Shown: in pieces, positions 21,278-25,862 of the stretch
Position numbering within the stretch: position 1 is the stretch's first letter
Layout of the letters: each line of letters opens with the position of its first letter
Origin: Aeromonas diversa CDC 2478-85
GTDB lineage: Bacteria > Pseudomonadota > Gammaproteobacteria > Enterobacterales > Aeromonadaceae
DNA: 64,000 nt
Reading direction: 5' to 3'
NCBI RefSeq assembly: GCF_000819805.1
Contig: NZ_CDCE01000031.1
Span: 1-64,000, forward strand
The notes under the pieces: generated by a model
Databases searched by the model: none
What the model was told of the DNA's origin: nothing
What the model saw: the letters and a program-made list of their open reading frames with translations, nothing else
Program-made: the position numbers and the translations under genes

Positions 21278-21393
21278 TAATTAGCGTTCCTTATCGCTTG
21301 CCGGCTGAATTGATCGTTTGTTCGTCGCTTTCTGGGCGGATAGCCTATCACTATGTTTTCAATCTGTAATAAAAGCTAATGATAGGAGTCAAG

Positions 21394-22482
21394 ATGCACA
21401 CTCGTCGCACCCTGCTCAAGATGATGGCTGCCCTGGGCGTGTTGGCCGCAACCCCTCTGGCGCTGGCCGGAGAAGAGGAGCCGCTGATGATGCCCGATGA
21501 GGCGTCTCCTCAGGCGCGGGTCTGGGTGGCGTTTGCCGCCAGCCGCGCCATCTGGGGCGGCTCGTTCCAGGAGGTCCAGGCCACCATTGGCCGGTTGGTG
21601 AGGGCCCTGGTCCGCTTCACCCCGGTGACCGTACTGTGCCGACCGGGCGAGGAGGCCCTGGCGCGGCGCCTGTGTGGCGAGCGCAATACCCGCTTCATGC
21701 CGATGGCTCTCGACGACATCTGGGTGCGTGACACGGGGGGCGTCTTCGTTCGGGATGGGGATGGACTCACCCTGGTGGACTTCAACTTCAATGGTTGGGG
21801 AGAGAAACAGGAGCATGACAGCGACAGCAGGTTGGCGGCGGCGCTGGCCAAGGCGAGCGGAGCCCGCTATCTGCGTGCCGGTATCACGGGGGAGGGAGGC
21901 GGCATAGAGGTGGATGGCGAGGGAACGGCGATCATGACCGAGAGCTGTTGGCTCAACGACAATCGCAATCCCGGTGTGACGCGCGCCGAGCTGGAGTCCG
22001 AGTTCAGGGCGCTATTGGGGATACGCAAATTCATCTGGTTGCCGGGGATCAAGGGGCGGGACATCACGGATGCTCACGTGGACTTCTATGCCCGCTTCGT
22101 GCGACCCGGTGTGGTGGTGGTCAATCTGGATAATGATCCCGACTCTCACGACTATGGGGTGACTCGCGAGCATCTGGCCATCTTGCGGGCGGCGCGGGAC
22201 GCCGAGGGCAGGGCATTAACCCTGCATACTCTGCCACCGCCGCGCCAACCCAGAGATAACGCCTTTAGCCGCAGCCGCGACTTTGCCGCCGGCTACATCA
22301 ACTACCTGCCGATCAATGGCGCCGTCGTGGTGCCCCAGTTTGGCGATCCCGAGGCCGATGCCCACTGCCGTACCCTGCTCGGGAAGCTTTACCCCGGTCG
22401 TGAGCTGGTTCCCCTCGATATAGATCCGGTCGCGGCAGGAGGCGGGGGTATTCATTGTATTACCCTGCACCAGCCTGCCTGA
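21394..22482 (+). CDS. Tat-exported agmatine deiminase-family protein
   Basis: 362 aa. The N-terminus MHTRRTLLKM starts a twin-arginine signal, with a likely cleavage after ALA near residue 25. The mature part is an agmatine/peptidylarginine deiminase (PAD_porph) domain: DDIWVRDTGG substrate loop, GEGGGIEVDG, DAHVDFYARF and the C-terminal GGGGIHCITLHQ with catalytic Cys355. Ordinary agmatine deiminases (AguA) are cytoplasmic and yield N-carbamoylputrescine, so periplasmic location is unusual. AGGAG lies six bases upstream of the ATG. The substrate could be agmatine, another guanidino compound or peptidyl-arginine. Confidence 0.85.
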   Translation: MHTRRTLLKMMAALGVLAATPLALAGEEEPLMMPDEASPQARVWVAFAASRAIWGGSFQEVQATIGRLVRALVRFTPVTVLCRPGEEALARRLCGERNTRFMPMALDDIWVRDTGGVFVRDGDGLTLVDFNFNGWGEKQEHDSDSRLAAALAKASGARYLRAGITGEGGGIEVDGEGTAIMTESCWLNDNRNPGVTRAELESEFRALLGIRKFIWLPGIKGRDITDAHVDFYARFVRPGVVVVNLDNDPDSHDYGVTREHLAILRAARDAEGRALTLHTLPPPRQPRDNAFSRSRDFAAGYINYLPINGAVVVPQFGDPEADAHCRTLLGKLYPGRELVPLDIDPVAAGGGGIHCITLHQPA

Positions 22483-22486
22483 CGTT

Positions 22487-23587
22487 TTAGGCGCGATCGG
22501 ATGACTCGGTAGACGCCTGTGCCAGGGAGGCGGCCTCTCGTACTTCGCCCTCCCGGATCCAGGCATCGAGCAGGGTATAGGCGACGGCCAGCACGACCGG
22601 GCCGATGAAGAGGCCTATGATGCCGAAGGCAAACAGACCGCCGATGACCCCCACCAGGATCAGGATCAGGGGCAAGTCCGCCCCCTGTTTGATGAGGTAG
22701 GGGCGCAGGAAGTTATCCATGCTGCCGGCAAACAGGGACCAGACCAGCAGGAAGGTGCCCCAGGTGTTGTCACCGCTCCAGTAGAGGTAACCGATGGCGC
22801 TGAGCAGTACCGGGAAGGGGCCAATCTGGGCGATGATCAGCACGAACATCAGCACCACCAGCACCATCACATAGGGTATGCCGGCGATCAACAGGCCGAT
22901 GCCGGCCACGGTGGATTGCACCAGTGCCGTCACCACCACGCCGAGGGCGACGGCGCGGATCGCCTGAGAGGCCAACACGGTGGCGTTGTCGCCCCGCTCA
23001 CCCGCCAGTCGGTGCGCGAAGCGGCGAATGCCATTGGCCGCTCGCTCTCCCGAGTGGTAGAGCATGCCGCAGACGGCAACGGTCAGCAGGAAGTGGACAA
23101 ACAGCATGCCGAGATTGCCCGCCTGAGCCGCCAGCCACTTGGCGGTCTGCCCCAGGTAGGGGGTGAGCTTGGCAAACAACACCTGTCCGCCACTGGCGAG
23201 GATCTGGCGCCACAGCTCCAGCAGCTTGTCGCCGACCAGGGGGATCTGTTGCAGCCAGAGCAGCTCGGGCGGGGTCGAGTGGTTAAAGGTGCTCGCCCAC
23301 TCCAGCAGCAGGGGCACCTTCTCGGCCATGGTGGCCAGTGCCATGGAGAGGGGGATGACAAACAGCAGCAGCAGGGCGCCGGTCATCACCAGCACGGCCA
23401 AGGGGCGGCGCCCCCACAGCAGGCGTTGCACCAGGCGCAGCAGCGGCCAGGTGGCGATGGTGATCATGGTGCCCCAGATGAGGGCCGGCAGGAACGGCTT
23501 GAGCACCCAGAGGCTGGAGATGATGAGAATGCCGATAAACAGCACTCCCAGAGTTACTTTGGCCAGATCACGCTTCTTCTCGGGCAT
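22487..23587 (-). CDS. ydiK: YdiK-like AI-2E family permease
   Basis: 366 aa. The family (AI-2E/PerM) has about eight membrane segments with a large loop after the third. Here hydrophobic blocks occur near residues 10-45, 65-95, then from about 155 on; the C-terminal GLFAFGIIGLFIGPVVLAVAYTLL is characteristic. YdiK is the closest E. coli homologue by architecture; transport of autoinducer-2 is shown only for TqsA. The gene overlaps the upstream Nudix-PAP2 gene by 20 bases, suggesting a shared transcript. It lies four bases from the convergent deiminase gene. Confidence 0.85.
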   Translation of the reverse strand: MPEKKRDLAKVTLGVLFIGILIISSLWVLKPFLPALIWGTMITIATWPLLRLVQRLLWGRRPLAVLVMTGALLLLFVIPLSMALATMAEKVPLLLEWASTFNHSTPPELLWLQQIPLVGDKLLELWRQILASGGQVLFAKLTPYLGQTAKWLAAQAGNLGMLFVHFLLTVAVCGMLYHSGERAANGIRRFAHRLAGERGDNATVLASQAIRAVALGVVVTALVQSTVAGIGLLIAGIPYVMVLVVLMFVLIIAQIGPFPVLLSAIGYLYWSGDNTWGTFLLVWSLFAGSMDNFLRPYLIKQGADLPLILILVGVIGGLFAFGIIGLFIGPVVLAVAYTLLDAWIREGEVREAASLAQASTESSDRA

Positions 23588-24920
23588 AGCGGTCGTTTCC
23601 AGGAATGGCGGTGGAAGAGAGGAGCCAGATGCCTGCGCTCAGCCATAAGCCAAGCAGCAGTAAAGAGGCCCATTGTAGTAACAAGATGGTGAGCGAGCTG
23701 CTCATCAAATAGGGAAGCTGCCACTGCAACAGGCCGCACAGCAGACTGCCGACCAGCGCCAGCAAGGCGGTCGGCAGAGGGGGACGTGCATGACGCTGCA
23801 AGGGGAGCGATTGCCCCAGGCTCAGCCCTGCGCCGAGACTGGCCAGGGCCATCAGCGCGTTGGACTGGGTTGGCCAGGCCAGCGCCAGGGCGAGCAGGCT
23901 TAGCGTCCACCAGGCCAGGGGGCGGGCCGAGAGTCGTGCCAGTGTCTCGGATTGGCTGAGTAACAGCCCTCCCAGCAGCAAGCCGGCGAGCACGTCGGAG
24001 ATGAAGTGGACACCCAGTTCGAGACGAGCCAGCCCGGTAAGCACTCCCGCCAGCATGGCCCAGAGCAGAGGCTGGCGACAGCCCTGCCATTGGCGCAGCA
24101 GCAGGCCCCAGAACAGCAGGGCGGTGGCGGTGTGGCCACTCGGCATGCCAAAGCCGCCACTCGCCTGCTCGGCAAGCTGAGGCATCAGATGAAAGGGGCG
24201 CGGCCAGCCGATGGCGAGCTTGCTCAGTGTGATACAGAAGGCCAGCGCGCCCAGGGTAAAGAGCATGGCGCGCAGCCGTGGCCACCCCAACCAGGGCAAC
24301 AGCAGGGGGAGCAGGACCAGATAGAGTGCCTGCTCGCCGAACAGGTTGGTTACGGCCAGCAGCGGCGCCAGGGGGGCCAACGCCGTCTGCAGTCTCTCCA
24401 GCCAGGGAAGCTCGGCGCGATGCAGCAGATTGCCCTGTTGACTGAAGTCCCTCAGCTCCTGGCGCTGACTGTCGCCACCGGCAGGAAGCCGAGTGGCGAG
24501 CCAGCGGGTCTGCTCGGGAAAGCGCAACTCGACCTCGGGCGCCGCTGGATTGATCAGCCTGGCCTGGCGGATCTCGCCACCCAGATTCGGAGCATGGAGC
24601 AGGTTGACGTCTCCTTGCGGGGTCACTTGCAGCGGGGTGAGGGTGCGGCAGGCAAACAACATGGCTCTATTCCACTGGCCGATGGGGGAGAGGATCTCAC
24701 CCTTGAGTCCCGTCTCTTCATAGAGCTCGCGCAGTGCCGCCTGTTGCGGCGTTTCTCCGCCATCCACATAGCCACCGGTCAAGCCGAAGCGTCCCGAGAC
24801 GCTGTCTTTTACCATCACGACCCTGTTCTGATGCTGTACCACACAGACGGCGGCGGTTGGTGACGCTGCGCTGGCTTGTCCCGCCAGCAGGGTAATCACT
24901 ATCAAGAGGATGTGAATCAC
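23568..24920 (-). CDS. Exported Nudix hydrolase-PAP2 phosphatase fusion
   Basis: 450 aa, apparently two enzymes in one chain. From the GTG at 24920, with GAGGAA seven bases upstream, it starts with a signal peptide ending ASA. Residues about 25-75 hold a complete Nudix box, Gly50 to Leu72: GX5EX7REUXEEXGU. From about residue 190 there is a membrane-embedded PAP2 phosphatase with all three motifs: KLAIGWPRP (234-242), PSGH (260-263) and R-x5-H-x3-D (299-309). PAP2 enzymes dephosphorylate lipid phosphates such as undecaprenyl pyrophosphate or lipid A. The Nudix domain in the periplasm is odd. An earlier TTG at 24977 is less likely as the start. Confidence 0.82.
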   Translation of the reverse strand: MIHILLIVITLLAGQASAASPTAAVCVVQHQNRVVMVKDSVSGRFGLTGGYVDGGETPQQAALRELYEETGLKGEILSPIGQWNRAMLFACRTLTPLQVTPQGDVNLLHAPNLGGEIRQARLINPAAPEVELRFPEQTRWLATRLPAGGDSQRQELRDFSQQGNLLHRAELPWLERLQTALAPLAPLLAVTNLFGEQALYLVLLPLLLPWLGWPRLRAMLFTLGALAFCITLSKLAIGWPRPFHLMPQLAEQASGGFGMPSGHTATALLFWGLLLRQWQGCRQPLLWAMLAGVLTGLARLELGVHFISDVLAGLLLGGLLLSQSETLARLSARPLAWWTLSLLALALAWPTQSNALMALASLGAGLSLGQSLPLQRHARPPLPTALLALVGSLLCGLLQWQLPYLMSSSLTILLLQWASLLLLGLWLSAGIWLLSSTAIPGNDRYAREEA

Positions 24921-24977: not shown

Positions 24978-25742
24978 CTACTTCAGCAGGGGGGCGAGAT
25001 CCTTGCTTAGGGTGAAGTTCAGCATATGGGCATACTTTTGCGTCAGGGTGCGATAGGCCTGACTCTGCATCACTCGCATCAGGGCCTGCTGAAAGCGCTC
25101 GACCTTTCGTGGATCGGTAGCCGGATTGAAGGCGAAGCAGTTTTCCTGCTGGCTCAGGATGGCGACGACCTGGAACTCGGCCGGGTTGAAGCCCATGCGT
25201 CCAATTTGGTGGAACAGCAGGTCCTGATTGGCGGAGACCAGGTCGGTACGGGCCAGGGCCAGCTGGCGCACCACCTGATCCATGCGCTCCACCGACATGA
25301 TGCCCTGTGGCGCTATCCCGGCATTGAGCAGCAGTTGTTCGCCGACGTCCGCCTTCATGGCGCCGATGCGAAGGGGGCGCAGATCGTCCAGAGAGGTGAT
25401 GGTGTGTTTGTCCTGCTTGCGGCCGATGAGAGAGATCTTCGAGACGCTGATGGGGCAAGCCCAGAGGAAATGGGGCGAGCGGGCACGGGTGTGTGAGGTG
25501 GCAAAGAGCACGGCGCCAGGTTGTTGGGTAAGCAGATACCAGCCCTGAGCCCAGGGTAAAAAGTGGATGGGGTGCTCTTTTTCCCCCATCTCCTGCCAGA
25601 CCAGGGTCAGTAGCTCGACGGAGAAGCCGCTCGCCTCTCCACGGGGGCCCTGGCCATTGAGGGGTTGGTTCTCTTCCGAGTAATAGGTGAGCGCCAAGAG
25701 AGGCAGGGCACAAGCCCATAGCAGCATAAAGAGAAACTTCAT
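24978..25742 (-). CDS. Periplasmic solute-binding protein family 3, orphan
   Basis: 254 aa. A signal peptide (FLFMLLWACALPLLALT) is followed by a two-lobe periplasmic binding domain; SVELLTLVWQEMGEK and WAQGWYLLTQQPGAVLFAT match the family 3 amino-acid-type fold. No ABC permease or ATPase is next to it. The ATG at 25742 is preceded by GGAGG. It ends next to the Nudix-PAP2 gene with only the leader of that gene between them. It may be a sensor or scavenger protein rather than a transporter part. Other such proteins are found at 35085, 44967, 45719 and 60562. Confidence 0.8.
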   Translation of the reverse strand: MKFLFMLLWACALPLLALTYYSEENQPLNGQGPRGEASGFSVELLTLVWQEMGEKEHPIHFLPWAQGWYLLTQQPGAVLFATSHTRARSPHFLWACPISVSKISLIGRKQDKHTITSLDDLRPLRIGAMKADVGEQLLLNAGIAPQGIMSVERMDQVVRQLALARTDLVSANQDLLFHQIGRMGFNPAEFQVVAILSQQENCFAFNPATDPRKVERFQQALMRVMQSQAYRTLTQKYAHMLNFTLSKDLAPLLK

Positions 25743-25862
25743 CACGCCTCCAGCAGGCCGGGATCACAGGATTCGTTGAGTATAGGCACTCGGGTTCAGC
25801 TCATGACATGGCCCCCCTGTGGCGGCTATAGTTGGCAGATTCTTTATCTCAGTGGTCAACAC

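Follow-up and report, generated by a model that had tools for sequence, protein, structure and literature searches.

Nudix chemistry is usually viewed as cytosolic housekeeping, and the lipid phosphatases of the PAP2 superfamily, including LpxE and PgpB/YodM, are six-helix proteins. We have studied a gene that joins these two superfamilies in a single polypeptide. It lies within a 64,000-nucleotide stretch of the genome of Aeromonas diversa CDC 2478-85 (contig NZ_CDCE01000031.1, positions 1 to 64,000), to which we refer as the window. Soluble Nudix hydrolases such as CDP-Chase, UDP-X diphosphatase, MutT1 and NUDX1 share the Nudix fold and Nudix box with its product, but the fusion protein is probably exported and tethered to the membrane, and it contains a conserved pair of cysteines. 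Lipoproteins of the Alteromonas type, named 'NUDIX hydrolase' or 'phosphatase NudJ', have the Nudix signature in common with it, but they lack the membrane module and have a lipid anchor instead. LpxE, PgpB/YodM and other lipid PAP2 phosphatases share the PAP2 core and motifs, but the match covers only residues ~162-335. Human G6PC1 resembles the membrane half more completely by model, but the fusion protein is bacterial, 15% identical to it, and has a Nudix domain at its outer N terminus.

The architecture is already annotated. RefSeq gives the name 'bifunctional NUDIX hydrolase/phosphatase PAP2 family protein' to proteins of Aeromonas and Photobacterium, and the same name is found on a gene of a Photobacterium damselae plasmid. 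Literature searches on this protein and on exported Nudix enzymes found no study of the fusion, and in the literature searched there was no description of a constant Nudix core accompanied by separate losses of the phosphatase, nor of the nine-helix fold.

Nudix and PAP2 domains in one reading frame

The initial annotation of the window had proposed an exported Nudix hydrolase fused to a PAP2 phosphatase. A domain search of the full protein bears out the fusion, with both domains well above their Pfam cut-offs in one frame of 450 codons (NUDIX, 50.9 bits against 21.1, residues 22-126; PAP2, 67 bits against 27.2, residues 218-321). The Nudix box is intact from G50 to G71, so that the catalytic glutamates are kept, and the three PAP2 motifs (K234/R241/P242, PSGH and R299/H305/D309) are all complete, again as had been claimed. 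By score and by motif the protein thus belongs to both superfamilies. The coordinates of these features are collected in Table 1. Glu116 would be a candidate for the catalytic base or a metal ligand. The closest database match, P0002, also from Aeromonas diversa, is 98% identical.

The hydrophobic run at the N terminus ends in A-S-A immediately before the first Nudix strand, and a hydrophobic window precedes the Nudix domain in 152 of 155 aligned rows of the family. Export of the protein, also suggested in the initial annotation, is probable: the sequence of the N terminus, the modelled topology and the existence of lipoprotein relatives all agree with it.

Table 1. Positions in the window of the fusion gene, its elements and its neighbours
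Feature	Positions	Strand	Basis
Nudix-PAP2 fusion gene	23568..24920	-	450 aa, GTG start; 450 codons open
Hydrophobic N-terminal segment with A-S-A, probable signal peptide (residues 1-18)	24867..24920	-	Sequence
Nudix domain (residues 22-126)	24543..24857	-	Pfam PF00293; model
Nudix box (residues 50-72)	24705..24773	-	G50-x5-E56-x7-R64-E65-x2-E68-E69-x-G71
Cys26, first of conserved Cys pair	24843..24845	-	Alignment of relatives
Cys91, second of conserved Cys pair	24648..24650	-	Alignment of relatives
Glu116, invariant	24573..24575	-	Alignment of relatives
Arg133, invariant	24522..24524	-	Alignment of relatives
Membrane module, G6PC1-like by model (residues 165-437)	23610..24428	-	AlphaFold2 model; VIA-align
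PAP2 motif 1, K234-x6-R241-P242	24195..24221	-	Motif reading
PAP2 motif 2, P260-S-G-H263 (PSGH)	24132..24143	-	Motif reading
PAP2 motif 3, R299-x5-H305-x3-D309	23994..24026	-	Motif reading
ydiK-like AI-2E family transporter gene, 20-base overlap with fusion gene	22487..23587	-	NF008216, 448 bits, cut-off 305
Upstream gene, family 3 solute-binding protein	24978..25745	-	PF00497, 29.5 bits

The fusion recurs in Aeromonas and Vibrio

All 37 genomes of the same genus, that of the window included, contain a match to the fusion protein, in a single frame in 36 of them; in the remaining genome (G008) the gene is in two frames. A second group of relatives is found in a family, f22, that we take to be the Vibrionaceae, because plasmid matches are named Vibrio or Photobacterium and one f22 protein has 100% identity with its counterpart from a named Vibrio (L044, L112). 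A profile search at E ≤ 1e-20 gave a relative in 241 of 296 f22 genomes, with both domains spanned among the matches listed; at least one f22 genome (G380) holds only pieces of the fusion. The fusion is therefore neither chance nor a sequencing error, given its recurrence in all 37 genomes of the genus. The idea that faulty sequencing or assembly joined two genes, which the initial annotation had named as a way in which it could fail, is contradicted by both sets of genomes and may be set aside with near certainty.

The distribution outside these groups is narrow. A sample of the order (295 genomes) gave 38 matches, 16 from the same genus and 22 from f22, and none in the seven genomes listed for a further genus within the family to which Aeromonas belongs. 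Among 369 genomes sampled across the class, only the window's own has a full-length match and two others match one domain, and in a sample of the phylum (398 genomes) there was no full-length match beyond f22 and the window's genome.

Two records concern the continuity of the frame. On plasmid pOCN014 of Vibrio coralliilyticus (L012) the annotation divides the fusion into a Nudix gene and a PAP2 gene, whereas a related plasmid (L011) has a single gene. In the genome whose deletions are listed in PMC10441182 (section 23), genes for a NUDIX protein, an IS1-like transposase and a PAP2 protein occur in succession (IC627_05625 to 05635); the trio is perhaps a fusion gene split by an insertion.

A constant Nudix site and an eroding PAP2 site

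To compare the family we aligned 156 distinct full-length sequences from 191 loci, merging duplicates and excluding six short sequences. Eighty of the loci came from a scan with a Vibrio alignment and the patterns A[QE]RE[TVA]WEE and [LI]PxWFAP[HS][YF][GS], as the best 80 of 192, and lean towards Vibrio and towards an intact Nudix box; an earlier scan of contigs with the window protein as query confirmed no locus. The others were the top-scoring loci of each search and those of 24 genomes picked by hand.

The Nudix site is essentially constant. R64, E65, E68, E69, C91, E116 and R133 are each present in 156/156 sequences and C26 in 155, with one gap, while position 56 is Glu in 144 and Asp, Asn or Thr in 12. 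In contrast, the nine-residue catalytic set of PAP2 is complete in only 47/156. His263 of the PSGH motif is kept in 50 sequences and His305 in 61, and both are gone in 93; Asp309 of motif 3 is kept in 154. Leaving out the 80 scanned loci, 91 sequences have R-E-E-E in 91/91 and an intact PAP2 set in 47/91. The figure of 47/156 is not a population frequency, for which the evenly drawn order sample is a fairer guide: of its 23 f22 places 19 are readable, with the PAP2 site lost in 18 and intact in one. PAP2 is intact in all 23 unbroken distinct Aeromonas sequences, in most sequences from genus g106 and, for genus g101, in the first copies.

The 109 sequences without the full set comprise 108 with substitutions and one Aeromonas copy with a broken frame (L017; this is counted among the 109 and in the close pairs described below, and excluded from the tree). 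Within the lost group Pro242, Gly256 and Pro260 are each retained in 109/109, Asp309 in 107 and Arg241 in 85. Pfam still recognizes PAP2 in three of four lost-site relatives tested (35.7, 51.8 and 63 bits), and the fourth (L039) falls short with 25.2 of 27.2 bits, but the catalytic motifs are not complete in the relatives that form the Vibrio core. In G6PC1 the H176A and H176N substitutions are reported to abolish activity and H119 to give the proton (PMC12264158). By motif these histidines correspond to His305 and His263, respectively; the residues lost from PAP2 are those needed for the chemistry. The RefSeq term 'bifunctional' implies two activities, whereas the PAP2 site has been lost in the Vibrio core.

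At a Nudix identity of 0.45-0.55, the mean identity of the membrane part is 0.311 among 60 lost representatives and 0.459 among 26 intact ones, and the membrane part thus seems to evolve faster where the site is lost. For close pairs we calculated the ratio of nonsynonymous to synonymous substitution rates (dN/dS). Lost pairs gave medians of 0.037 for the Nudix domain and 0.036 for the membrane part (141 of 173 pairs used), and intact pairs 0.119 and 0.296 (23 of 25 pairs used). On relaxation of the membrane part, the two comparisons do not agree.

The PAP2 site was probably lost more than once

A tree was calculated for 86 representatives (26 intact, 60 lost) after removal of the motif columns. 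It requires four changes between intact and lost states, with four forced by starred branches, compared with an average of 22.6 in 500 shuffles of the labels. The tree gives no direction by itself; we read the changes as losses because the PAP2 superfamily is catalytic. The main lost group comprises 55 rows, the Vibrio core with genus g84, and is adjoined by the intact L080. The other lost rows are the second g101 copies (L106-L108), L091, and L101, whose branch is very long. The placement of L101 is unsure, and we therefore limit the claim to at least three separate losses, which is what the tree suggests. The g101 genomes (L106-L108 with L089, L090 and L096) have two copies of the fusion each; three of them were examined, and in each an intact copy is accompanied by a second that has lost PSGH.

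Nudix lipoproteins related to the N-terminal domain

Four stand-alone Nudix frames of family f7 (L111, L197-L199) have N termini that look by eye like those of lipoproteins; one of them (L198) has Gln at the position of E68. With L111 as query, a database search gave 71 proteins, of which the named ones are from Alteromonas and Aestuariibacter. In the 60 of at least 150 residues, C26, R-E-E-E, C91 and E116 are found in 60/60, and Arg133 in 59 with one gap. A lipobox follows a hydrophobic run in 48/71; the lead is too short in six, four have another hydrophobic lead, and 13 have none that the test could recognize, several of which are probably truncated gene calls. The pair of cysteines would then be the mark of an exported Nudix subfamily, linked as a Cys26-Cys91 disulphide. 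At all four f7 loci a gene for a putative RND efflux adaptor (assigned by eye) is divergent from the Nudix lipoprotein gene.

The membrane module is predicted to have the fold of G6PC1

Comparison of the AlphaFold2 model using VIA-align indicates that the membrane half resembles G6PC1 over its whole length, with nine helices and the N terminus outside. The one model made of a dead-site relative retains the whole of this predicted fold. G6PC1 is absent from the 60 sequence matches listed for the fusion protein. LpxE and PgpB/YodM come next in the fold comparison and are the best solved relatives by sequence. The scores for the corresponding equivalogs are far below their cut-offs (LpxE, NF007159, 26.6 of 177 bits; phosphatidylglycerophosphatase B (PgpB), NF007975, 20.1 of 261 bits; undecaprenyl-diphosphatase SepP, NF047884, 22 of 250 bits), and the Nudix equivalogs YtkD, RppH and NudE were rejected in the same way. 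Stand-alone relatives of the membrane module (L200-L205 and L110) are found in other families as open frames of 237-327 aa, and the longer ones may be bacterial phosphatases of the G6PC1 type.

Neighbouring genes

The end of the fusion gene overlaps the start of the ydiK-like gene by 20 bases, as first described, and ydiK lies beside the fusion in 27/27 of the Aeromonas loci examined (including three that duplicate others). The solute-binding gene was matched in 11 of these 27, many of which have short flanks. Of the 80 loci named as Vibrio, 73 have a same-strand gene for a GNAT acetyltransferase no more than 700 bases upstream; six have it at about 2 kb upstream, and one gave no match. The GNAT gene is retained in Vibrio where the wider context differs. 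The neighbours, ydiK in Aeromonas, GNAT in Vibrio and the putative RND adaptor at four loci, vary with the lineage and name no pathway from which the substrate could be deduced, and many families tie among the fold matches of the Nudix domain. A link to defence was dropped, as the one PADLOC match is weak (19.8 bits) and falls on the Nudix part, as do five PHROGs matches. A promoter scan was uninformative. Elsewhere in the window, positions 21379-22482 (+) encode a peptidyl-arginine deiminase family protein (PF04371, 344.8 bits) that misses the cut-off for agmatine deiminase (229.5 of 381.8); its N terminus, M-H-T-R-R-T-L-L-K, looks by eye like a twin-arginine (Tat) signal, and the product is possibly an exported deiminase of another kind.

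Discussion

The explanation that we favor, and consider probable, is that the protein is a membrane-bound periplasmic Nudix pyrophosphohydrolase carried on a G6PC1-type module, whose phosphatase is intact here and dead in the Vibrio core. The Nudix domain would be the conserved catalytic core, placed in the periplasm at the outer face of the inner membrane and seated on the modelled nine-helix, N-terminus-out module, where it would split a pyrophosphate link (X-P-P-Y → X-P + Y-P). The Aeromonas diversa module has kept all its catalytic residues, and probably dephosphorylates a Nudix product or some other phosphoester on that side of the membrane. In the Vibrio core, where the catalytic histidines have gone, the module would persist as an inactive platform for anchoring or positioning, and the phosphatase step would be dispensable or supplied by other enzymes. 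In many Vibrio relatives the Nudix site is kept and the PAP2 site lost, which points to the Nudix half as the essential enzyme. The domains and motifs, with their conservation, loss and spread, are direct observations, and the fold and topology come from models; the periplasmic location, the order of the reactions, the disulphide and the class of substrate we infer. For the substrate we slightly prefer a soluble nucleotide or sugar conjugate to a lipid; G6PC1 acts on a soluble sugar phosphate, and with a fold like that of G6PC1 a soluble phosphoester is no less plausible than a lipid.

Most of the Nudix enzymes studied are cytosolic, and this usual location would favor a Nudix domain facing the cytoplasm, with the hydrophobic N terminus as a membrane helix. 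Set against this are the predicted nine-helix, N-out fold with the charges of its loops (see also PMC12264158), the lipoprotein relatives, and the conserved cysteines. The window's genome has ten other Nudix matches, and these show no such pair, although their alignment was too loose to be relied on for single residues. We regard the cytoplasmic orientation as very improbable. A different possibility follows from the initial annotation, which suggested that the two domains could act in sequence on one substrate. The same chain would process a lipid or polyprenyl pyrophosphate (undecaprenyl or lipid A diphosphate, or CDP-diacylglycerol), Nudix before PAP2, in recycling of the envelope. Both sites are intact in the window, and 47 of the aligned sequences have the full PAP2 set; LpxE and PgpB/YodM are the fold matches next in rank and the best by sequence, and NUDX1 entries with geraniol or geranyl pyrophosphate occur among the Nudix fold matches. 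Yet the Vibrio core has a dead PAP2 site, the scores fall well short of the LpxE, PgpB and SepP cut-offs, and three other PAP2 matches in the bacterium's own genome could serve, so we consider this unlikely. The family as a whole cannot have a second step on the one chain as its common function, because the Vibrio core lacks the PAP2 histidines with an invariant Nudix site; in Aeromonas and the other intact lineages the two domains may yet act in succession.

The domains might instead act on unrelated substrates and be joined for membrane placement only, the phosphatase being a general periplasmic phosphomonoesterase that is lost where redundant. This would fit the loss of one site while the other is invariant, and the existence of both stand-alone Nudix and stand-alone membrane relatives (L110 and others). 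However, the dead module retains its whole fold, in one model, and is under purifying selection at the median dN/dS given above, seemingly more than a spare anchor needs; an arrangement of this kind appears to us improbable too. Returning to the periplasmic Nudix enzyme, a broader proposal can be put forward more tentatively, at slightly less than even likelihood. Gammaproteobacteria would possess an extracytoplasmic Nudix subfamily recognizable by its conserved cysteine pair and attached to the membrane through either a lipid or a nine-helix module of the G6PC1 type. In Vibrio and some relatives, separate losses would have converted this module from a phosphatase to a pseudoenzyme, with a role in substrate binding or in placing the Nudix domain.

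If Vibrio and Aeromonas do share a conserved Nudix enzyme in the periplasm, a pyrophosphate substrate beyond the inner membrane would have gone unrecognised. The name 'bifunctional' would be wrong for many of the Vibrio relatives. Similarly, a bacterial module of the G6PC1 type, if confirmed, would be a bacterial counterpart of a human disease enzyme. The series from intact to dead phosphatase on a constant Nudix domain offers a natural test of which half matters, and of how a membrane enzyme becomes a scaffold.
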